Source: a virus. Taken from it: a stretch of DNA of 30,855 bases. The translations under genes were made by a program, and so were the position numbers. The notes beneath the pieces are model-generated. The model made no database searches and was not told the DNA's origin. It saw only the letters and a list, made by a program, of their open reading frames with translations. Positions 173 to 27,830 of the stretch are shown here, piece after piece. The stretch covers positions 1 to 30,855 of the IMG/VR virus record IMGVR_UViG_3300033155_001977; one strand, 5' to 3'. How positions within the stretch are numbered: position 1 is the first letter of the stretch; each line of letters begins with the position of its first letter.

Positions 173-898
173 ATGAGATACTACACATATAACGATATTG
201 AACTGCCTTCTGTTACAACTATTACAGGAATATTAGACAAGCCTGCACTAATGTACTGGGCGGCTAATTGTACACGTGATTATATCCTTGAACAACTGTC
301 TACCTTTGAGCTTAACGACAACAGAAATAAATTATTAGAAATAATTAATGATGGGCCTAAAAATTTTAGAAAGGTTTCAAAAAAAGCTCGGGACATTGGT
401 TCGCAAACACATGAAGCGATTGAAGAATATTTGAAAACTGGCAAGGAACCTTACAAGCCAGGAAAAGAAGTTGAGACAGCTTTTACAGCTTTCCTTGAAT
501 GGAAAGATGCAGTTAATTTACAACCTGTCTCAGTTGAGAAAACTGTTTTTTGCGATATGAATTTTGGATATGCTGGAACTTTAGACTTAATTGCAGACAT
601 AACAATTAAAAATAAAACTAAACGCTTTGTAATTGATTTTAAAACCAGCAAAGCTATTTACAAACCTGAGTACAATTTACAATGTGCTGCATACAGAGGA
701 GCACTTAAAGTGGAATCTATTTGTGCAAATGATATAAACTTATCAATTGAAGGAAACGCAATTGTTAGATTAGATAAAGCGACAGGCTTCCCACAGTTTA
801 AAGATTTTTCAGATTCTTATTTGAATGACGTAGAAGCCTTTATGACCCTTGCTAAGTTTTTTTATTTAACACATAATTGGAAGGGAAAACAAAAATGA
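173..898 (+). CDS. PD-(D/E)XK nuclease (Cas4/RecB-like phage exonuclease)
   Basis: This 241-residue protein is probably a DNA nuclease of the PD-(D/E)XK superfamily, acting on phage or host DNA in recombination or replication. The expected motif series is visible in order: H80 in THEAIEEYL, D138 in GTLDLIAD, the D-x-K core in VIDFKTSK (D155, K157), and the QxxxY motif in QCAAYRGA (Q170, Y174). The N-terminus (YNDIELPSVTTITGI) is also typical of phage members of this family. No Cys cluster for an iron-sulfur site is seen, so it is not a full Cas4. The ATG at 173 follows AGGAAA. The gene overlaps the next one by 4 nt (ATGA), suggesting translational coupling with a NinB/Orf-like protein, a partner that fits a recombination module. 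Specific activity (5'-3' exonuclease or endonuclease) cannot be told. Confidence 0.82.
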   Translation: MRYYTYNDIELPSVTTITGILDKPALMYWAANCTRDYILEQLSTFELNDNRNKLLEIINDGPKNFRKVSKKARDIGSQTHEAIEEYLKTGKEPYKPGKEVETAFTAFLEWKDAVNLQPVSVEKTVFCDMNFGYAGTLDLIADITIKNKTKRFVIDFKTSKAIYKPEYNLQCAAYRGALKVESICANDINLSIEGNAIVRLDKATGFPQFKDFSDSYLNDVEAFMTLAKFFYLTHNWKGKQK

Positions 899-1326
899 TT
901 GCACCTCGTTTTAAAGGTATCATAAATTTTGATAAAGCCCTCAATTTCAGGCTAAAAGAAATTTCAAGATGGGGTATGTGGTTGTCCACTAAATTCAAAG
1001 AAGGCGAGCACATAGAAATAATTATTAAAAAATGGAAACGCAAAAAAAGTAATCAGCAAAACAAATACTATTGGGGTGTAATCATTTCAATATTAAGCGC
1101 TCACACTGGATACACTAAAGAAGAAATGCACGAAGCGTTAAAGGTAAAATTCTTAAAGGACGTTACAAGTATATCCGAAGTGCCTAAGTTTTTTGATTAT
1201 AAAAAATTAAGTACAGTATACCAAGAAGAATATCACGATAGAATCAGAGTTTTTGCAGCAACAGACCTTGGGGTTAATATCCCGCTGCCAAATGAATGCA
1301 ACTATGAAGGAATTATAAATGATTAA
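895..1326 (+). CDS. NinB/Orf-like recombination-associated protein
   Basis: A 143-residue protein whose layout resembles the lambda Orf/NinB type of phage recombination mediator. The segment KKSNQQNKYYWGVI is the counterpart of the R-S-x-x-Q-N-R-x-x-W motif of NinB, and it is followed by HTGYTKEEMHEALK and a C-terminal part around IRVFAATDLGVNIPLP. I chose the ATG at 895, which overlaps the nuclease stop (ATGA) and has AAGGGAA upstream, over a TTG at 877 that would add six residues. The pairing with a PD-(D/E)XK nuclease supports a job in DNA recombination or repair. The family assignment rests on motif memory only; many phages carry this protein as hypothetical. Confidence 0.55.
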   Translation: MIAPRFKGIINFDKALNFRLKEISRWGMWLSTKFKEGEHIEIIIKKWKRKKSNQQNKYYWGVIISILSAHTGYTKEEMHEALKVKFLKDVTSISEVPKFFDYKKLSTVYQEEYHDRIRVFAATDLGVNIPLPNECNYEGIIND

Positions 1327-1588
1327 ATTAAAATTTCTTAATGTTCATAATGCGCTTACCCTTTTTCCGAAATTATCGATAGCTGATAAAAATAGAATGG
1401 AGAAAGCTATAACAGACCAATCAGAGCGTGATGCGTTTAAAGATAAATGCGTAACTAAATGTGGCAAATGCAAATTAGCAACTCGGCATGGAACACTCAA
1501 GCTCGGTACTTTATTGTATGGGTGTAAGCATAAAAACTTTTTCACAGATAACCCTAAGAAACTAAAAGCCGCTCCTTTTTTAGATTAA
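1319..1588 (+). CDS. Small Cys-motif protein, unknown
   Basis: An 89-residue protein that I do not recognise. It has four cysteines in the C-terminal half (C44, C48, C51, C69; CVTKCGKC then YGCKH), a spacing compatible with one zinc or metal site but not with a named family. The N-terminal 40 residues look helical and charged. The start overlaps the previous gene by 8 nt, with GAAGGA just upstream, so it is probably coupled to it. Confidence 0.6.
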   Translation: MIKLKFLNVHNALTLFPKLSIADKNRMEKAITDQSERDAFKDKCVTKCGKCKLATRHGTLKLGTLLYGCKHKNFFTDNPKKLKAAPFLD

Positions 1589-1665: not shown

Positions 1666-1697
1666 GCGTCGCCAAGACGACGCATGTGCGATATAAT
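1666..1697 (+). promoter_or_regulatory. Palindrome next to a TATAAT box (possible operator/promoter)
   Basis: In the 129-bp gap between two plus-strand genes there is a perfect 6-bp inverted repeat, GCGTCG (1666-1671) and CGACGC (1678-1683), with a 6-nt spacer, much more GC-rich than its surroundings. A second small palindrome CGCATGTGCG (1681-1690) follows, then a consensus -10 box TATAAT at 1692-1697. No TTGACA-like -35 is present at 16-18 bp spacing; the palindrome lies at that position instead. This may be an activator-dependent or repressed promoter giving a very short leader before the ribosome site at about 1705. It could also simply be an RNA hairpin. No T-run follows, so it is not a standard terminator. 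Confidence 0.35.
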
Positions 1698-1717: not shown

Positions 1718-1987
1718 ATGAATAAACCAATTTCAATATGTGAGTTTTTAAAAACACTACAGCTTCTTTTTAATCCTGAAGAATATGTAATAGGCTTTCT
1801 GCTTTATTATAAAGATGGGGTATATCATGCTAGCTTTACACAACAAGAAAAACCTACAGGGGAAACTGTAGTTTTTATCAAAATTGAAAAAAACAAACCT
1901 TTGACAAGTACTGATATAAACCAAGCAGTGTGTGACTTTTGTGATAAAAAAATATTTACACAAATCCGCATAACCATTTTACCCTAA
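1718..1987 (+). CDS. Hypothetical phage protein (89 aa)
   Basis: An unrecognised 89-residue protein with a strong AAGGAG ribosome site ending about 7 nt before the ATG. The middle (VIGFLLYYKDGVYHASFTQQ) looks like beta strands and the protein has two C-terminal cysteines in CDFCDKK. No transmembrane segment or known motif is seen. It is the first gene after the palindrome/TATAAT region, so it may head a sub-operon that includes the ferredoxin. Confidence 0.6.
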   Translation: MNKPISICEFLKTLQLLFNPEEYVIGFLLYYKDGVYHASFTQQEKPTGETVVFIKIEKNKPLTSTDINQAVCDFCDKKIFTQIRITILP

Positions 1988-2031: not shown

Positions 2032-2211
2032 ATGATTTCAATAAACAAAACTAAATGCATTAATTGCGGAGCATGTACTTTTGAGTGTGATGGTGGCGCA
2101 TTAGATTATTTTTCAGAAAAAGAAATAACTTATTCAGAAAAAGATTGTATGGAATGCTACGAATGCGTGGATGTCTGTGAGCAAAATGCAATTACGGTAA
2201 AGAAAGAATAA
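2032..2211 (+). CDS. Small 2[4Fe-4S] ferredoxin
   Basis: This 59-residue gene encodes two complete CxxCxxCxxxC iron-sulfur motifs: C9, C12, C15, C19 (CINCGACTFEC) and C39, C42, C45, C49 (CMECYECVDVC). Each motif is followed by the usual short strand (GGALDY and QNAITV). This is the layout of bacterial-type 2[4Fe-4S] ferredoxins, low-potential electron carriers in the cytoplasm. The common proline after the fourth Cys is replaced by Asp and Glu. The length matches classic clostridial-type ferredoxins (about 55-60 residues), so nothing appears missing. The ribosome site is weak (AGAG shortly before ATG). It lies 6 nt before the next gene and 44 nt after the previous one, clearly inside the phage operon. 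Its electron partner is unknown; a host oxidoreductase or a phage enzyme such as an anaerobic ribonucleotide reductase activase outside the window are possibilities. Confidence 0.85.
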   Translation: MISINKTKCINCGACTFECDGGALDYFSEKEITYSEKDCMECYECVDVCEQNAITVKKE

Positions 2212-2217
2212 AGTAAT

Positions 2218-2451
2218 ATGAAAGCTTTTTATTTAAAACATCCAACAGGAAAAAATACGCCACAGCAAAAATATTATAGAAGCCCATGTTTTACATGTGC
2301 ACACAAAGAGGATGATAAGCACAAGTGCTCTGCAAAGTGCAGGGCACGAATAAACTATTTAAACACATTAGAACTTACCTATAACAGGGATGCTGATTTT
2401 TCACATTTAACAAACTACCCAATTATAGAAAAAAGTTTTAGAAAATGCTAA
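2218..2451 (+). CDS. Small zinc-finger-like protein (CxxC-x9-CxxxC)
   Basis: A 77-residue protein with a compact Cys motif, C24, C27, C37, C41 (PCFTCAHKEDDKHKCSAKCRARI), which suggests a single zinc site followed by a basic helix. This could be a small nucleic-acid or protein-binding finger. I recall similar uncharacterised phage proteins but no function. It starts 6 nt after the ferredoxin stop with only a weak purine stretch as ribosome site, so translation is probably coupled. Its end overlaps the next ATG by 7 nt. Confidence 0.6.
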   Translation: MKAFYLKHPTGKNTPQQKYYRSPCFTCAHKEDDKHKCSAKCRARINYLNTLELTYNRDADFSHLTNYPIIEKSFRKC

Positions 2452-3152
2452 TATCATTATTAAAAAGGATATATAAAAAAATGAAATGGCCAGACCATAA
2501 AAGAGAAAAAAAAGAACTTGGCTTGCCAGAAGAACAACTTACTTTCTTAACTACTCCAGAACCTTTTAAAACCAAGCCGCTTGACAATTTCCCAATAACA
2601 GAAAAAATACAAAACCGAGAACCTATATCCGATTTCTTTTATTGGTATGAAGTCTTTAAAAGTCCTACTGCTAAAAAATTACGGATTGATAACAACACAA
2701 CCGATATTAAAATTTTAGAGGCTATACAATATCATGCTGCATATACTTTAGACCCTATCCGGAAACATATTAAAAGTCCTGTTTATATAGGCTCCTGGTA
2801 TCGTAACCAGCAATTGTCTTATGCTCTAAAGCTTCTAAACACAAAAAAATATACGACAGAACAAATTCGCAATATGGTTTTAAAAATACCTGCACCTTTC
2901 CGCCTCAGTTATCATAAAACAGGAGGGTGTACAGATTTTGAACCTATTCAACATTCTATCTCTTTAAGCAAAATAGCCCTATGGATAATAGACAACCTAC
3001 CATTTCATCAAATAATATTAGAATACTTCCCGAATGGCTGGATTCATTTAGCAAGCTTTAAAGATAAAGCTGATGGCATTATTTTGATAAAAGATGAAAA
3101 CCACGATTATGTAAAAGCTGATAGGGAATATATTATACAGTTATATGGATAA
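2445..3152 (+). CDS. M15-type peptidoglycan peptidase, probable endolysin
   Basis: A 235-residue protein matching the M15_3 (VanY/D-Ala-D-Ala carboxypeptidase-like) zinc peptidase layout used by many phage endolysins. Visible elements are the N-terminal cap FYWYEVFKSPTAKKLRIDN (about 65-83), LDPIRKHIKSPVYIGSWYRN (102-121), the zinc motif SYHKTGGCTDFE (H157, D164) and the C-terminal GWIHLASF with the third zinc ligand H201. There is no signal peptide or membrane anchor, so release would need a holin. The first ATG at 2445 overlaps the previous gene but has no good ribosome site; the in-frame ATG at 2481 with AAAAGGA upstream (spacing about 12) is an alternative that would drop 12 residues. Unusually, it sits in the plus-strand operon and not beside the holin. 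Confidence 0.75.
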   Translation: MLISLLKRIYKKMKWPDHKREKKELGLPEEQLTFLTTPEPFKTKPLDNFPITEKIQNREPISDFFYWYEVFKSPTAKKLRIDNNTTDIKILEAIQYHAAYTLDPIRKHIKSPVYIGSWYRNQQLSYALKLLNTKKYTTEQIRNMVLKIPAPFRLSYHKTGGCTDFEPIQHSISLSKIALWIIDNLPFHQIILEYFPNGWIHLASFKDKADGIILIKDENHDYVKADREYIIQLYG

Positions 3153-3178: not shown

Positions 3179-3583
3179 ATGTATTGTATCATTGCAAATG
3201 TGATAAAGGATAAACTTTTACGTAAAGGCGCAAAAGTCCGTCTTGTAGATTGGCATGTGGGAGGCAGAAACCATTGGGTGCGTGGACTGTCTAAAGGTGG
3301 AAGATATATAACAAAAATTATCCCTTATAAAAAATTAACGGATTTTAGAGTAACGTATATTGATTGGATGAAAAAGACAGATTGCCTAAGTATGTGGAAG
3401 CGGCAAGACAAAGCTCAAGAGTTTGCAACTCATCTTGTCAAAACATGGGATAAAATAAGAGCGTATGACCATCAAGGAAATCTTATAAAAGATGGGGTGC
3501 CTGAGACTTCTTTATATAAAAAAGTACCTTCGGCAAATGTTTATATCCCTTTTTTAAAAAAATATAATTGCATGTGGACTTAA
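3179..3583 (+). CDS. Hypothetical basic phage protein (134 aa)
   Basis: An unrecognised 134-residue protein, rich in Lys, Arg and Trp (for example VRLVDWHVGGRNHWVRGLSKGG and IDWMKKTDCLSMWKRQ). The basic, aromatic composition could suit nucleic-acid binding, but there is no recognisable motif. The ATG at 3179 has AAAGGAA upstream at a spacing of about 7-8. It is the last plus-strand gene before the convergence with the late operon. Confidence 0.55.
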   Translation: MYCIIANVIKDKLLRKGAKVRLVDWHVGGRNHWVRGLSKGGRYITKIIPYKKLTDFRVTYIDWMKKTDCLSMWKRQDKAQEFATHLVKTWDKIRAYDHQGNLIKDGVPETSLYKKVPSANVYIPFLKKYNCMWT

Positions 3584-4094: not shown

Positions 4095-4436
4095 TTACGT
4101 TTTCTCTGCTATTTTATTAATACTGGCTGCAATTGCTTCCACGCTTTTACATAATGTTTCTATTTTAACCGTTAGAACTCTTATTGTTCCCTCAATAGTT
4201 CCTTCTTTTTGCTTTAAGTCTTTTATATCCTTTTCACAAATAGTAATCCGTTCTCTTAAACGGTTTGTCTCTGTTGCATTATTTTCTTTTGCATTCGCTA
4301 TAAGCCCTTGTATTGCTTCTTTATCAGACGTTTGCCGTTTCGTAAAAGTATTAAACGCAAAACCTACCCATCCCAAAAGAACAATAATTATAGCGTTAAA
4401 TAAAATTGCCACTATTGGCCATAATGAGGAATTCAT
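4095..4436 (-). CDS. Membrane-anchored coiled-coil protein (possible i-spanin)
   Basis: This 113-residue protein has one N-terminal membrane span (about 6-30) followed by a long charged region (about 37-105) with heptad character (RERITICEKDIKDLKQKEGTIEGTIRVL), so it should be a bitopic protein with a coiled coil outside the inner membrane. In a lysis cassette next to a holin this is the layout of an inner-membrane spanin, but no partner o-spanin lipoprotein is visible. DUF2730/DUF2746-type coiled-coil phage proteins are an alternative. It overlaps the upstream gene's stop by 4 nt (ATGA). Confidence 0.55.
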   Translation of the reverse strand: MNSSLWPIVAILFNAIIIVLLGWVGFAFNTFTKRQTSDKEAIQGLIANAKENNATETNRLRERITICEKDIKDLKQKEGTIEGTIRVLTVKIETLCKSVEAIAASINKIAEKT

Positions 4437-5221
4437 TTATTTTTCCTATATTCATCCTGTACTTTAAAAGCTAAGTAAGCACTGAAAAATAAAAAACTTA
4501 TAACTATTATTATAAATTCTGGTGCATATTGATAAAAATTATTTGATTCGCTTTGAAACTGAGATTGGTTTTGCACAGAACTTTTTATTATAATAGCAAC
4601 AGATGGCACTCCTACATATAATTTACTGTATAAAAAAACTCCTAAATTCAAATAAAGTTCTCGGAAAAGCAAAATTAACCATAAAAACTTAGTGAATGAA
4701 AAAAGATCTTTAATTGAAACAAAAACAGAAAATACAAAATACGCTATTGAACTATATAAAATAAATTGGCAAAATCTATGCAACAATTCAAAATTATAAG
4801 CAGGGTTAAGGTTTGTTATTTTACAAAATGAAAGCTCATTATTTAAAAAAGCTTTATAGAAAACAAATAGATTAACCTGTTCGGAATCATTTAAAACAGC
4901 TACTGTATAATTGAATGTATTATAATATAAAGTTATAGCGGCTAAAATCATAATTATAAAAATTATTCCTTTAACCCAAAAATTATATTTTAGAAAATTC
5001 AAAAAAGATTTTTCTTTATATTGATATGTAGTGAAAAGACTTATTACAAAAAAGAAAAGGCCTACCATAAAAAGACCAGCAGCACACATATTCCAAGTTG
5101 CCTCATAGCTTAAAGCTTGGCCTGACATTCTATCAGCTTGATAAAGAGCAATATAAAAAAAACTTACAAAGTAACCAATAAACCCTGCTATTATTAACTT
5201 GTCTTTATATAACAATCCCAA
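4433..5221 (-). CDS. Polytopic membrane protein, unknown
   Basis: A 262-residue protein with about six predicted hydrophobic spans (about 9-28, 46-65, 84-101, 151-170, 177-197 and 235-253), rich in Phe, Ile and Tyr. I do not recognise a family. The start is a TTG at 5221, directly after the TAA of the previous small gene and 7 nt after a GGAGG ribosome site that is itself part of that gene's coding end. No ATG is available nearer than residue 32, so the TTG is convincing. The position between tiny hydrophobic genes and the spanin/holin genes suggests a membrane job late in infection, such as lysis control or superinfection exclusion, but this is only context. Confidence 0.6.
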   Translation of the reverse strand: MGLLYKDKLIIAGFIGYFVSFFYIALYQADRMSGQALSYEATWNMCAAGLFMVGLFFFVISLFTTYQYKEKSFLNFLKYNFWVKGIIFIIMILAAITLYYNTFNYTVAVLNDSEQVNLFVFYKAFLNNELSFCKITNLNPAYNFELLHRFCQFILYSSIAYFVFSVFVSIKDLFSFTKFLWLILLFRELYLNLGVFLYSKLYVGVPSVAIIIKSSVQNQSQFQSESNNFYQYAPEFIIIVISFLFFSAYLAFKVQDEYRKNK

Positions 5222-5511: not shown

Positions 5512-5955
5512 TTATAATTTAATAAAACATATTTTCTTATCTTCTTTACGTGGGTAAAATATCTCATCAGTTTGCGGTTCAATAAATCTTATTTTCCTAT
5601 TTTCATTAATTGAAAAGTTTATTGCGTGAAGACAAGGTTCTTGACCGTCTATTGAAAATTTACCCCACACGACCCCAAACACGTACGGGAAGCGTACTTT
5701 ATTTTCATACTGGTAACGCACTATATCACCCTTTAAAATGTCGGCAAAATCATCACAATCGAATACGCCAGCCTTATAATCCATTCTATCAGTCTTGCTA
5801 CGTTCTAAAAACTCTTTCAACACAGAATCAGATAAACTTATATACGTCGAATCAGCAATAAAAATTCTAAAGCGTTTACATATACAACTGATTTTCCCTT
5901 TTAATTCTTTAAAAAGAATTTTCTTTACATCACCATCAAATAGCACGTCTTCCAT
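5512..5955 (-). CDS. MOA-related papain-like protein
   Basis: This 147-residue protein matches what I recall of proteins annotated as lectin MOA-related, similar to the C-terminal cysteine-peptidase domain of the mushroom agglutinin MOA. Candidate active-site elements appear in the right order: C67 in VFDCDDFADILKGD, H110 in CLHAINFSI (with N113), and E126 in RFIEPQTDEIF. Its normal substrate in phages is not known to me. Near the holin and membrane genes it could be a second wall- or protein-cleaving enzyme, or a virion-associated peptidase. Its ATG overlaps the preceding stop (TAATG). No signal peptide or carbohydrate-binding beta-trefoil domain is present, so it is the catalytic-type domain alone. 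Confidence 0.6.
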   Translation of the reverse strand: MEDVLFDGDVKKILFKELKGKISCICKRFRIFIADSTYISLSDSVLKEFLERSKTDRMDYKAGVFDCDDFADILKGDIVRYQYENKVRFPYVFGVVWGKFSIDGQEPCLHAINFSINENRKIRFIEPQTDEIFYPRKEDKKICFIKL

Positions 5956-6843: not shown

Positions 6844-7761
6844 TTAATAAAGTGAATAATAATCGTTAATGTTTGTTTCAATCGTTGCTTTATTTGCGAA
6901 CTTATTAGCATCATATAAAAGAATCTCAGATATTTTGCCTGTAAAATCACTAGCTGAAAGTATCCGATAACCTACTGAAAGATTATCAAAAGTAATAGTT
7001 CCCACTGAAGAACTTGAAATAAAAGGTGTTGAACTTCCATTTATATAACCGTTTACAGTTGTTCCATTATAAAAAATAGATACTAAATAATCTGTATTGC
7101 CTGTAAATGGGCTTGCTATAGGTGTAACATACCCCGAATCTGATTCTGGAAGATAACAATTTCCATCAGTAAAACGAGGGAAAAACCCATTATAAGTAAT
7201 ATTAGTTGTTCCGTACACACACCCCCCTGTATTTACTCCATCTATTCTAAAAACTAAAAAAATGGAATACACATTCCCAGGGGAAATAGTTAAACTGCTA
7301 TTTAATAATCTATCACCATCAAACTGATTAGTAGGTTTTAAAGGGCTGCCCGTTTTAATTATATCGCCATTGTTTACTATTTGTGGTTGTAAAGAAGTTG
7401 TTGATTGTGTTACATCAAAACCATTTCCGCTTTGGTCGTACCATTCAGCTCCGAAGCCATTAGTCGAAGCGCAAAAATCTGTTAAAGCAGTTTCATCTAA
7501 CCCCGCACCACTAAAACCAATATCCAAGTGGTCTTGGTTAGAATCTCTTCTTACTTTCTCAGCATCCCCCGTATATCCTCCCTGCAATAAGCTTAAAGAA
7601 TAAGCTGCTTTCAAGTTTATCACATCTATATCCCGAGCTGCTGGTGGCGGAGGCGCACTCACTGCCCCCCCTTTAAACTCATTTGTAGCCCAAATTAAAT
7701 TCGGGTTTATACCGTTAATATTATTTAAGTCAAATCTATGTAGTATTTTATATTTACCCAT
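6844..7761 (-). CDS. Phage adhesin with concanavalin A-like (LamG/arabinofuranosidase-type) domain
   Basis: This 305-residue protein is a probable receptor-binding or decoration protein. From about residue 52 it carries the segment AAYSLSLLQGGYTGDAEKVRR..., then FGAEWYDQSGNGFDVTQ (104-119), the hallmark of concanavalin A-like beta-jelly-roll domains of the LamG_3/ArabFuran-catal kind seen in phage fibres. The C-terminus (SVGYRILSASDFTGKISEILLYDA) is the final conserved strand pair of this fold. A Pro-rich linker (APPPPAAR, about 36-43) separates a short N-terminal virion-anchoring part. The ATG overlaps the stop of the preceding gene (TAATG), tying its expression to the other fibre genes. Confidence 0.7.
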   Translation of the reverse strand: MGKYKILHRFDLNNINGINPNLIWATNEFKGGAVSAPPPPAARDIDVINLKAAYSLSLLQGGYTGDAEKVRRDSNQDHLDIGFSGAGLDETALTDFCASTNGFGAEWYDQSGNGFDVTQSTTSLQPQIVNNGDIIKTGSPLKPTNQFDGDRLLNSSLTISPGNVYSIFLVFRIDGVNTGGCVYGTTNITYNGFFPRFTDGNCYLPESDSGYVTPIASPFTGNTDYLVSIFYNGTTVNGYINGSSTPFISSSSVGTITFDNLSVGYRILSASDFTGKISEILLYDANKFANKATIETNINDYYSLY

Positions 7762-23505: not shown

Positions 23506-23829
23506 TTATTTTTTAATTCCCATCAATAAATCTTCTGCCTTATGAGCATTTGATGGTTTAGCTTTATACACTTGTTTATAAAGCCATGTTACTATTTCTT
23601 TTCTGCCTGATTTAAAACTACTATGAGCATTACCTGTAAAAGTAGTTTCGTAAAAATCGCTTATATACATTAACACATGCAAAATATCTTGCCCGTCGTT
23701 AGTGCTAAATACGTTATTAAGTTTATTTGTCCATACATGCTGGCAATCTTCGCAAAACAAATAATTAATGTCAGCTTGAGGCTTGTCACAGAACAAGCAT
23801 TTTTTCAGTGGTTGGTTATGCTTCGGCAT
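23506..23829 (-). CDS. Bbp19-like protein with N-terminal zinc ribbon
   Basis: A 107-residue protein. The region NDGQDILHVLMYISDFYETTFTG followed by SSFKSGRKEIVTWLYKQV matches the Bbp19-type phage domain (DGRRVLxxLLxxxGxFxxSF...F.EGRRxxGLxLL), found in BPP-1-like head gene clusters. An N-terminal four-Cys zinc ribbon (C11, C14, C26, C29: CLFC...CEDC) is fused to it, which I do not remember from typical members. The role in the head is unknown. It overlaps the upstream gene by 14 nt and precedes the scaffold gene. Confidence 0.65.
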   Translation of the reverse strand: MPKHNQPLKKCLFCDKPQADINYLFCEDCQHVWTNKLNNVFSTNDGQDILHVLMYISDFYETTFTGNAHSSFKSGRKEIVTWLYKQVYKAKPSNAHKAEDLLMGIKK

Positions 23830-24088
23830 TTTCCTCCGTTAAAGTACACATGTCCTTTCCTTTTAACTCTAATTCTGAAAGTACTTCCTCCTCTTCTATC
23901 GCCTCACCCGGAAAATTAACCCATTCCACTTTTACCCCACAATTCCCACAAAATTTAGAAAATAGGTCAGGAGGATTCGCGAAAATGTATTCTACTTCAC
24001 ACTGAGGACATTTAAACCAAGCCAAATAAACTTCGTCCACAAAAGCTTCCTTTAGTTGTACCTCATAATCTATACTAATTTTTTTCAC
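23816..24088 (-). CDS. Small zinc-ribbon protein (90 aa)
   Basis: A 90-residue protein with a zinc ribbon, C27, C30 and C47, C50 (KCPQC...FCGNCG), followed by an acidic tail (AIEEEEVLSELELKGKD). It is a general metal-binding ribbon with no specific family. It overlaps both neighbours by 14 nt, so translation is coupled with the deoxyribosyltransferase-like and Bbp19-like genes. It may act on nucleic acid or in protein-protein contacts. Confidence 0.6.
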   Translation of the reverse strand: MKKISIDYEVQLKEAFVDEVYLAWFKCPQCEVEYIFANPPDLFSKFCGNCGVKVEWVNFPGEAIEEEEVLSELELKGKDMCTLTEENAEA

Positions 24089-24503
24089 TTTTTTGTTCCT
24101 TTAAATACTTAACTATATCTGAAAAGCTATCGTCCTCACTAAAAGCTTTACCCCCATTGTTTTCTACCATTTCCGCAACACTTCTCAAAGAACGGCGTTG
24201 ACCTTCTGAAAAATTTTTAACCAATGGGAAAAAGTCACTCACATACCAAAACAATGTACGCTCAGGACGTTTATTGCTATCATCAATCACCTCTGCAATT
24301 GAATAAACTCCAGTCATTGAAGGAGTAATAACGTATAAACAAAAATCACACTCTTGCCGTTGTCTGATTTCTTCTGCCTTGCATTCCTCAGTCCAATCAT
24401 CCACAACAGGATTAAAATAATCTATTTCAGCATTGTTTAAAAATGGAATTAAATCCCGTCGCCATGCCGAACCATTGCAAGTACCACCTAAAAAGACTTT
24501 CAT
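24075..24503 (-). CDS. Nucleoside 2-deoxyribosyltransferase-like protein
   Basis: A 142-residue protein of the Nuc_deoxyri_tr2 type. It opens with FLGGTCNGSAWRRDLIPFL (4-22), then DYFNPVVDDWTEECKAEEIRQRQECDF, and YVITPSMTGVYSIAEVIDDSN (58-77), where E71 is the likely catalytic glutamate. Family members exchange bases between deoxynucleosides or act on NAD-like and nucleotide substrates. In the phage cytoplasmic phase this may serve nucleotide salvage, base modification or counter-defence. Odd is its position inside the morphogenesis operon, directly after the portal gene. Confidence 0.75.
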   Translation of the reverse strand: MKVFLGGTCNGSAWRRDLIPFLNNAEIDYFNPVVDDWTEECKAEEIRQRQECDFCLYVITPSMTGVYSIAEVIDDSNKRPERTLFWYVSDFFPLVKNFSEGQRRSLRSVAEMVENNGGKAFSEDDSFSDIVKYLKEQKSEKN

Positions 24504-24506
24504 TTA

Positions 24507-26213
24507 TTATTTCTCCCCTGCATTTAGCATATCCGTTAAAGCATTCTTGCCTTCCGTATCAGTTTGTGACAACTCTTTTGCAGCTCCGACAACACCACCT
24601 ATTTGCTCTTGTGTTTGCTGTGCTTCCATTTGTACCGCTTGCTGCTGTTTTATAGCTTCAAGCTTTGCTGTGTATTCCTCTGATGAATAAAACATGTCAG
24701 CAGGCGCATTTACTACGTTGATTGTTTCGTCCATTGTAACATCTGCATTTAACTTATGAATAATATTTGGATCAAACTGCGCCACTTGGCCAAGCATACC
24801 TAAAGATTTATCCATACTAATTTTTTTAAACTCTTCAGCTATTCTAAATAATAAGGATTTATATTCTGGCTTAATTGGCTCTTTAGATAATTCAGGAGGA
24901 GGTTGCGGAATTAATCCAGCTCTGTTTGCTATTTCAAAAACTCTGTCGATAATAGGGTCATAAAAACTCACTTCCAATCGGTGAAGTAAATGCCCTAACA
25001 CGGCACCCTTTTGTTCCACTAGGCGAGCTATCTCAAAAGCAGTCTGTTGAACGTTTGGCTTATCGGCTATCATCAAAAGCAAATCATTATAAAAAACTTT
25101 TTGTATTTTATTTTGTAACGACGGAATATCATTTAGAACCCCACTTATATCAAAATACCCTGGCGGTAAAACTGGACTTACTTTCTGTTCACCCTGGCTT
25201 CCCATGTCAAAAACAGCACCAGGCGCAATAACGTCATCATTCATTTGTTGCTTTATATCAGGTGAAACATTACTAGCAGGATGTGCTTGATGGTCAATGA
25301 TATCAAGTTTTGCTCTTGTTTCTCTATATAAAAGTTTAATGTCTGCCAATGCCCCCATCGCTGGACTTCTTCCGTAAATATCACTACCCGATATTTTCCA
25401 TCGGATAGTAGGGCATGCGAACTCATCATAACCACTTTTTGACAAAATAGTTACATCCGCATTCGGATAATTATTTTTAGCACTTACTTTACAAGCACTG
25501 TTAGCCAAAAAATAAAAAGAAACAAATTTTTTGTTGCCGTTATCTATCTTGCTTGTATCTCTACCTGTATTTGGCATAATCAAATGGCTTACTTCAATAG
25601 GTTCCTGATTATATTTTTTAGCAGCATCCCTAATTTTAGAAGGTATTTCCTCAGCAGTTTTCTCAAATTGCGTTACAATATTCTCCGCAGTTGTATAAAA
25701 ACTACGAGCGATTGTATTAGGGTTTTGATAAATATCCACGCCTAAATAATACTCACCTGCCGTTAATGGCCTGAACCAAACTTTTTTATCTGGATGTTCT
25801 TGAACTATAACCGAAGCCGTGCCAAAGCCTATTAACTCCATCATCGCATAATTCAAAACACTATAAAAGTTAGAAAACTCTAAAAGCGATAAGAGAATGT
25901 CAGAAACTTCATCAAAGTAACTTTTAAAGTATTTATTTTTTTCAGGATCAGTAACGCCTATTCTAAGCCATGGTTGATTCCTCGGAATCATGCCTTGAAA
26001 CCCACCAGCCAATAATTGAGCTGCCATATATGGAACGCTGTCAAAAATATAATTGTAATTTTTGGCTATGTCTGGCTGTTCACCTTCTGTAATAAACTGC
26101 CCGTGGTCAGGAATAAGGTATTGTATTATTTGTTTCCAAACTGGCTCATATTGCTGACGACTTTGCTGTAAGTTTAAAAACAAACGGCCTATTTTTTTTG
26201 ATTCCTCAGACAT
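24507..26213 (-). CDS. Portal protein (head-to-tail connector)
   Basis: A 568-residue protein that forms the dodecameric portal through which DNA is packaged and ejected. It matches the T7/epsilon15-type head-to-tail connecting family: the N-terminus has EPVWKQIIQYLIPDHGQF, a middle region with YFDEVSDILLSLLEFSNFYSVLNYAMMELIGFGTASVIV, then GRSPAMGALADIKLLYRETRAKLDI and QNKIQKVFYNDLLLMIADKPNVQQTAFEIARLVEQKGAVLG, all typical. The Gln-rich tail is disordered. It follows the large terminase and a small gene, the normal order for head modules. Confidence 0.88.
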   Translation of the reverse strand: MSEESKKIGRLFLNLQQSRQQYEPVWKQIIQYLIPDHGQFITEGEQPDIAKNYNYIFDSVPYMAAQLLAGGFQGMIPRNQPWLRIGVTDPEKNKYFKSYFDEVSDILLSLLEFSNFYSVLNYAMMELIGFGTASVIVQEHPDKKVWFRPLTAGEYYLGVDIYQNPNTIARSFYTTAENIVTQFEKTAEEIPSKIRDAAKKYNQEPIEVSHLIMPNTGRDTSKIDNGNKKFVSFYFLANSACKVSAKNNYPNADVTILSKSGYDEFACPTIRWKISGSDIYGRSPAMGALADIKLLYRETRAKLDIIDHQAHPASNVSPDIKQQMNDDVIAPGAVFDMGSQGEQKVSPVLPPGYFDISGVLNDIPSLQNKIQKVFYNDLLLMIADKPNVQQTAFEIARLVEQKGAVLGHLLHRLEVSFYDPIIDRVFEIANRAGLIPQPPPELSKEPIKPEYKSLLFRIAEEFKKISMDKSLGMLGQVAQFDPNIIHKLNADVTMDETINVVNAPADMFYSSEEYTAKLEAIKQQQAVQMEAQQTQEQIGGVVGAAKELSQTDTEGKNALTDMLNAGEK

Positions 26214-26438: not shown

Positions 26439-27830
26439 TTACATATCAGCCCATGAGCGTTTCCCGCGCCCACGGCGTGAACTTATGTTGCGTTGCATTA
26501 ATATATTTTTATTTTTTTTGCGAACCGGATAAGCTCGCGTCAACGCCAAAGCATCAGCTCTATTTGGACTTGAAATTAATTGGCTTTTAGATTGTAAAAT
26601 TATTTGAGTTTCTTTTTTATAATCATATCGGATACTAGAAAGCTCAGAAATTAGAACAGGGTCATCAAAAATACTACCCCCGTTATCAAGCCATTCCTTT
26701 AGCTTTCCGTACATGTCAGCACGTTTATTAGCATACCTTATAGGGTCATCAGCCCTTGCTGCAAAGTTAACGCCTGTAATATAATGGCCGTAATTGAATT
26801 CTTTAAGACGGTTTAAAATACCCGAACCAGCTTCTCCCATATCCAAAAAAACCCTATCGGGCTTATCTTGGTCAATAGCTCTTATAATTTTATTAGCAAA
26901 ATATAATTGCCAATTATCAGTATGAGGCCGTTCTCCATCTAATCTAATCATTTGCATTCCACGCGTTGTACAAATAACATTCTCATCTCGGCGCGAAGCA
27001 AAATCAATCCCCATAATTGTAACGCCGTTATCGTAATCACTTATGTGGTACTTCTTATCAACTGCCTTTTTAACTGTTTCATAGGGTATATAAGGGTCTT
27101 CAACTAAATCAACAAATTCTCCAAATATCTCTTGGCGTACTGCTATTTCTGAACCACTTTCTTCGCGAACTTCCGCTTGCAATTCATTTAATGCTTCAGT
27201 ATCCAGTAACGGATTATCGTAACTGGTTACTGGAAATACAATATGTCGCGGGTTGTCTTTTGCAGCTCTGCATAATTCATAATATTTATGAGCTAAACCA
27301 TCTTTTGTTTTTTTACCCTTTGGAGTTCCGCCTACGATAATCAAGGAATTTGGATTGTCTAAAAGCATTGGCCTTACTGAGTTTTCCCACAAAGACCTAT
27401 TCTTTAAAATAATCCCAGCCTCGTTAAGAATAGCTAAGTCATAACCAAAACCTTCCCAGTTCTCAGGTCTGTCAGCTGAACGGAAATCACAATTTGACCA
27501 CCCACCTTCAGTGTTTCTTATTTTAATCTCTTTGCCTTCGTACATTTTAATCTCATACAGCTTTTCATTATTAGGCAATTTCAGCTGTTTGAGAATAGGC
27601 ATCCAAAAAAGCTCAACGTATTTTTTGATGTTTGATGCTATCGTATCACCCCATAGCACGGTTATTTTTTTCTCAATCATCTTTTCTATTACAAAATTAC
27701 TCATGCTTTGAGTAAAACCAAAGCGTCTGCCCTTCGGCACAAAAATACTTTTATACTTCCCGCTGTCCGCTGCATCCAGTATTTCTAACTGCTTCGGAGT
27801 GTAACCGTATTTTGAGATGCTTAAGTCCAT
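26439..27830 (-). CDS. Terminase large subunit
   Basis: A 463-residue DNA-packaging motor. The N-terminal ATPase has a variant Walker A, GRRFGFT (34-40), a Walker B LAILNEAG (N136-E137, where Asn replaces the more usual Asp) and a coupling motif GGTP (167-170). The C-terminal nuclease has its acidic residues in GIDFASRRDEN (D276), VFLDMGEAG (D330) and SPNRADALALT (D426). The Asn-Glu version of Walker B is one I recall from epsilon15-like terminases, so it is not necessarily a defect. It follows the small subunit after 9 nt. Confidence 0.88.
   Translation of the reverse strand: MDLSISKYGYTPKQLEILDAADSGKYKSIFVPKGRRFGFTQSMSNFVIEKMIEKKITVLWGDTIASNIKKYVELFWMPILKQLKLPNNEKLYEIKMYEGKEIKIRNTEGGWSNCDFRSADRPENWEGFGYDLAILNEAGIILKNRSLWENSVRPMLLDNPNSLIIVGGTPKGKKTKDGLAHKYYELCRAAKDNPRHIVFPVTSYDNPLLDTEALNELQAEVREESGSEIAVRQEIFGEFVDLVEDPYIPYETVKKAVDKKYHISDYDNGVTIMGIDFASRRDENVICTTRGMQMIRLDGERPHTDNWQLYFANKIIRAIDQDKPDRVFLDMGEAGSGILNRLKEFNYGHYITGVNFAARADDPIRYANKRADMYGKLKEWLDNGGSIFDDPVLISELSSIRYDYKKETQIILQSKSQLISSPNRADALALTRAYPVRKKNKNILMQRNISSRRGRGKRSWADM

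Follow-up and report, generated by a model that had tools for sequence, protein, structure and literature searches.

A predicted 2[4Fe-4S] ferredoxin gene in a putative podovirus of the epsilon15/BPP-1 type

The window (the whole 30,855-base stretch of DNA analyzed here, an IMG/VR record classed as linear and likely a fragment) contains, at 2032..2211 on the plus strand, a gene for a 59-aa protein with two intact CxxCxxCxxxC motifs. The fold model of this protein is that of a ferredoxin, and the gene lies among phage genes. The product is quite probably an electron-carrying ferredoxin of the phage, which would be expected to bind iron-sulfur clusters and to transfer electrons to a partner enzyme. 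On balance, we favor a fuller reading, namely, that this is a functional phage gene whose soluble 2[4Fe-4S] product supplies electrons to a needed redox enzyme, the most specific candidate being the activase of class III ribonucleotide reductase (RNR). The gene is a diverged addition to a group that is known but small, and the collections searched hold no earlier case from this podovirus lineage.

Sequence, family, and fold of the predicted ferredoxin

The ORF at 2032..2211 (+), which reads as given in a preliminary description of this DNA, starts with ATG and translates as MISINKTKCINCGACTFECDGGALDYFSEKEITYSEKDCMECYECVDVCEQNAITVKKE. An in-frame TAG lies two codons 5' of ATG 2032, which is therefore the earliest possible start. 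Cysteines 9/12/15/19 and 39/42/45/49 form the two complete CxxCxxCxxxC motifs, with 19 residues between them; the window has this motif pair a single time, and 0 of 200 first-order Markov simulations of the window contained it. The search against the Fer4 families that had been suggested for this ORF yielded scores over the Pfam cut-offs for both Fer4 (PF00037; 4.4e-11, 42.6 bits, cut-off 21.1, two stretches) and Fer4_7 (PF12838; 1.1e-10, 42.2 bits, cut-off 27). In the Pfam comparison, the dicluster ferredoxin domain spans the whole 59-aa chain, with no added DNA-binding or other region. PHROGs gave no convincing match for this ORF, and its nearest NCBIfam models are assorted electron-transfer families, all below cut-off, among them the named ferredoxin families HgcB (35.4 vs 99 bits), EFR1 (35.0 vs 75 bits), and FdxA_fam (26.6 vs 65 bits).

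AlphaFold2 modeling of the ORF without an alignment produced a poor, uninformative model (pLDDT 51.7). With a shallow alignment of seven rows (the ferredoxin ORF and six rows from IMG/VR loci), the model reached a pLDDT of 84.7 and showed the strand-helix-strand unit twice, as in ferredoxins. A Foldseek search with this model retrieved ferredoxin domains as well as the stand-alone ferredoxins of Clostridium acidurici, 1fca and 1fdn (TM 0.78-0.79 by query, rmsd 1.6-1.7); among the viral structures of BFVD, there was no match to the model at E <= 0.001.

As noticed in the preliminary description, the Pro after the fourth Cys is lost from both motifs, being replaced by Asp20 and Glu50. This Pro is usual in 2[4Fe-4S] ferredoxins, not obligatory, and a cellular ferredoxin (locus L327) likewise has Glu after its second motif. 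The preliminary description put forward that the loss might tune the redox potential. ATG 2032 lacks a strong Shine-Dalgarno sequence (gataaagtagagcATG); a site of the AAGGA/GAAGG type is found at most of the neighboring genes. We counted the weak ribosome-binding site and the loss of both Pro residues against the reading of the product as a functional ferredoxin.

Genomic neighborhood

The gene is located between phage genes, in agreement with the earlier observation. Upstream, on the same strand, are genes for a PD-(D/E)XK exonuclease of phage recombination (173..898, +; phrog_298, 3.1e-30; PF12705, 7e-5) and a NinB/Orf-like recombination mediator (895..1326, +; phrog_72, 1.2e-15), followed by an 89-aa Cys-containing ORF with a CxxxCxxC motif (1319..1588, +; no significant family match) and another 89-aa ORF that adjoins the ferredoxin gene on its 5' side (1718..1987, +; no family match below 0.05). 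A gap of 6 bases separates the ferredoxin stop from a 77-aa ORF with a zinc-finger-like CxxC...CxxxC arrangement (2218..2451, +; no family match), and farther downstream are an M15-peptidase-like endolysin (2481..3152, +; phrog_894, 3.7e-11, with a tblastn match to Pelagibacter phage peptidase M15) and a further ORF (3179-3583, +). The late structural genes are on the minus strand, convergent toward this block.

Two further cofactor assignments among the neighbors were considered and rejected: the C-terminal Cys triplet of a Cas4-type Fe-S cluster is absent from the sequence of the exonuclease (173-898), and the CxxxCxxC ORF (1319-1588) has no radical SAM match. At the left end of the window, an open frame (3-161, +) encodes a Cys-rich short repeat (CYKCYDCSNCTDCTDCTDCFYC) and consists of near-identical tandem units of ~9 bases.

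The block had been described as an early operon. As a description of the recombination genes, this is plausible; it fits less well with the rest of the block, which includes, on the same strand, the endolysin, usually a late gene, and a promoter-like site before ORF 1718 (1669..1697, +; 10/12 positions, a class of match not above chance). The possibility of an assembly join with host DNA had been raised as well, and none is visible. Known phage genes lie on the same strand, within ~0.7 kb of the ferredoxin gene on its upstream side and within ~0.3 kb on its downstream side, its GC (0.32) and GC3 (0.25) are like those of its neighbors, and the spacing is tight, so that a join is unlikely.

The phage and its relatives

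The portal/head-tail adaptor gene (24507..26213, -; phrog_332, 5.4e-101) encodes a protein with 28-32% identity to those of BPP-1, epsilon15, and others, and the portal, major capsid, scaffold, and tail genes together show ~25-32% to BPP-1, epsilon15, and similar podoviruses. The terminase large subunit (26439..27830, -; phrog_2, 5.8e-33) shows 36-43% to Campylobacter phages, a Desulfobacterales MAG contig, and a Curvivirga contig. Judging from these sequence similarities, the window phage is a divergent podovirus of the epsilon15/BPP-1 type, and the presence of podovirus-type structural genes on the same record bears out the earlier statement that a bacterial-type 2[4Fe-4S] ferredoxin is encoded in a podovirus. 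The nearest record found (L110) has 42% identity in the terminase and 32% in the portal. The late region includes, in addition, a 147-aa protein with an Agglutinin C-terminal domain (5512-5955, -; PF18021, 8.3e-12), unusual in such a region of a phage. Between the portal and scaffold genes lies a nucleoside 2-deoxyribosyltransferase-like gene (24075-24503, -; PF15891, 8e-11), adjoined by a zinc-ribbon-like protein (23816-24088).

Among cellular genomes, those with relatives of the terminase are Campylobacter, a Desulfobacterales MAG, Ignavibacteria, and Curvivirga, and because these are mixed, no host was assigned to the window phage. Assignment through the ferredoxin itself was rejected, as its cellular relatives are generic matches only, with 45-47% identity at best across ~700 genomes from three phyla. 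A Fer4_7 homologue was found in 0/50 related phage records, which are distant and in many cases fragments, and in 14/14 control genomes; given the distance and fragmentary state of these relatives, the absence is no proof that the gene is new to the window phage. Neither the ferredoxin nor the portal, each used as a single query sequence, gave a match in IMG/VR. Among phage records, tblastn returned five unannotated matches to the ferredoxin (E 0.006-0.05), four of them on fecal scaffolds; all five were left out of the evidence, and three of the fecal-scaffold records bear the mark UNVERIFIED.

Ferredoxins on other viral contigs

The gene had been proposed to represent a new kind of phage helper gene. 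This is not supported, given the precedents both in Nitrospirota viruses (PMC7678222) and on large IMG/VR contigs. The virus population VP_99 of Lake Baikal, associated with Nitrospirota, encodes a 4Fe-4S ferredoxin that is 86% identical to that of its host; the gene has been interpreted as an auxiliary metabolic one in support of the reductive TCA cycle (PMC7678222). Ferredoxin-type iron-sulfur domains have also been reported from an oxygen minimum zone virome (PMC8940887).

In IMG/VR, matches to a bare eight-cysteine DNA pattern proved to be mostly low-complexity Cys-rich repeats, and this pattern was abandoned. A search with a small ferredoxin alignment returned 45 pattern stretches, with 0 confirmed. 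A pattern with the motif spacing of the window protein, stricter than the bare one, identified no other viral contig in IMG/VR. Another stricter ferredoxin pattern matched 18 contigs, and three large ones among these, L335 (231,566 bases), L342 (117,318), and L338 (231,064), encode stand-alone 2[4Fe-4S] ferredoxins of 54-55 residues. L335 and L342 share the same ferredoxin and were counted as one lineage, so that the three contigs represent at least two. Terminase_6N was not found in L335, L342, or L338, and hence they are taken as phages from their inclusion in IMG/VR and their gene content.

All three of these contigs encode NrdD, the anaerobic RNR. On L342, a single strand carries thyA (3390), the ferredoxin gene (4299-4460), thioredoxin (6035), nrdG (6296), and nrdD sequence at 7174, and L335 has the same gene order up to nrdG; on both, thioredoxin-nrdG follows the ferredoxin gene on the same strand at a distance of 1.5-1.6 kb (1.6 kb on L342). 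On L338, the ferredoxin is ~6 kb away from thioredoxin, NrdD, and a radical SAM protein of the NrdG-like type. Stand-alone phage 2[4Fe-4S] ferredoxins can thus sit in dNTP-synthesis clusters with anaerobic RNR, a placement that offers viral ferredoxins lacking another explanation a specific role open to experiment. The dNTP cluster of L342 and L335 may be a better example than the window of a phage ferredoxin whose role is known. Its extent is L342:3390-8000 and L335:220-3173 (IMG/VR 3300033463_000040 and 3300028797_000096), with nrdD seen in L342/L347 and L348; L335 additionally encodes a dUTPase and a NifU-like protein.

Proposed function and alternative explanations

During infection, a host reductase such as PFOR, an FNR-type enzyme, or hydrogenase would supply the phage ferredoxin with low-potential electrons, which the ferredoxin would hand to a redox enzyme needed by the phage. 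Activation of class III RNR requires a flavodoxin- or ferredoxin-type donor, and, going by how the genes are arranged in the large phages, the activase of this enzyme, be it the host's or one encoded on phage DNA outside the window, would be the most specific candidate acceptor. Such activation would be expected to increase dNTP supply. RNR activation as the main target is a tentative assignment, less likely than not. The role in serving an RNR activase or a radical SAM enzyme that the preliminary description put forward gains indirect support from the nrdD-bearing large contigs but finds no such gene in the window: there is no radical SAM match, NrdG included, in the 30,855 bases and no NRDD match among the ORFs scanned with Pfam, which lie outside the large tail and virion genes, and no other ferredoxin-dependent gene was found in the window, itself a fragment. 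The ferredoxin gene suggests that low-potential electron carriers are in use in the host, and an anaerobic or microaerobic host with ferredoxin-dependent metabolism is the best reading.

The main rival, which we consider rather unlikely, is that the ferredoxin serves host energy metabolism, keeping low-potential electron flow through PFOR, hydrogenase, or the reductive TCA cycle going in infection. The VP_99 precedent with its link to the reductive TCA cycle (PMC7678222) and the mixed electron-transfer families among the sub-threshold NCBIfam models are compatible with such a role, but no host protein exceeds 47% identity in the ~700 genomes searched, so that no pathway is indicated. Divergence also bears on the view of the gene as a captured host gene, a passenger (moron) with no selected role, which would be consistent with its absence from 50/50 related records, the weak ribosome-binding site, and the lack of a similar gene in IMG/VR whether searched by its own sequence, by the small ferredoxin alignment, or by motif spacing. 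Strong divergence from the sampled cellular ferredoxins (45-47% at best) combined with retention of 8/8 Cys disfavors a recent unselected capture, and the composition of the gene matches that of the phage; we regard the passenger status as distinctly unlikely. Mis-assembly that joined host DNA to the phage, to which the linear and likely fragmentary state of the record might point, is extremely improbable in view of the flanking same-strand phage genes, the even GC and GC3 values, and the close packing of the genes.

Finally, the product might be an iron-sulfur or zinc protein other than an electron carrier, either a regulator with a structural or redox-sensing function or a decoy that binds and blocks a partner of the host ferredoxin. 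The small Cys-containing ORFs on either side (1319-1588 and 2218-2451) within a block of recombination genes, the acidic residues in place of Pro at both motifs, and the lack of a radical SAM partner in the window would all accord with this possibility, whereas the dicluster domain covers the entire chain and the model is that of a plain ferredoxin, which renders it improbable. Somewhat related, and in our estimation quite doubtful, is the idea that a diverged ferredoxin with both Pro residues changed to acidic ones in a small podovirus is a dedicated redox effector, acting as a retuned donor or as a decoy or switch on a partner of the host ferredoxin; if so, it would act on one host enzyme or host ferredoxin partner at takeover. 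Under the favored reading, an electron-donating phage ferredoxin, a small-genome podovirus lineage joins the few phages with a bacterial-type 2[4Fe-4S] ferredoxin.

Comparison with known ferredoxins

The closest structural likeness is to the Clostridium acidurici ferredoxin (1fca/1fdn), which shares with the window protein the two CxxCxxCxxxC motifs, a length of ~55-60 residues, and the same predicted fold, at 30% identity. Compared with this clostridial type, the window protein is phage encoded, has Asp/Glu for Pro after each fourth Cys, and has a cluster content that is predicted. The [2Fe-2S] ferredoxins of cyanophages, among them a Prochlorococcus phage ferredoxin reportedly described by Campbell et al. 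in 2020 (a work cited by PMC9973337), are likewise soluble and phage encoded; they differ in fold and cluster type and belong to phages of photosynthetic hosts. The Nitrospirota viruses of Lake Baikal (VP_99), compared here by description, resemble the window in that a viral contig carries a 4Fe-4S ferredoxin gene, but the VP_99 ferredoxin is near that of its host (86%; PMC7678222), whereas no near host protein was found for the window ferredoxin in the ~700 genomes searched. The ferredoxins of L335/L342 and L338 are, like the window protein, stand-alone, small 2[4Fe-4S] proteins encoded on phage contigs. In contrast to it, they keep the Pro after the fourth Cys, belong to other lineages with contigs of 117-231 kb, and are just 29-30% identical to the window ferredoxin; their contigs encode nrdD, and the ferredoxin gene of L335/L342 lies inside a thyA-trx-nrdG-nrdD cluster.
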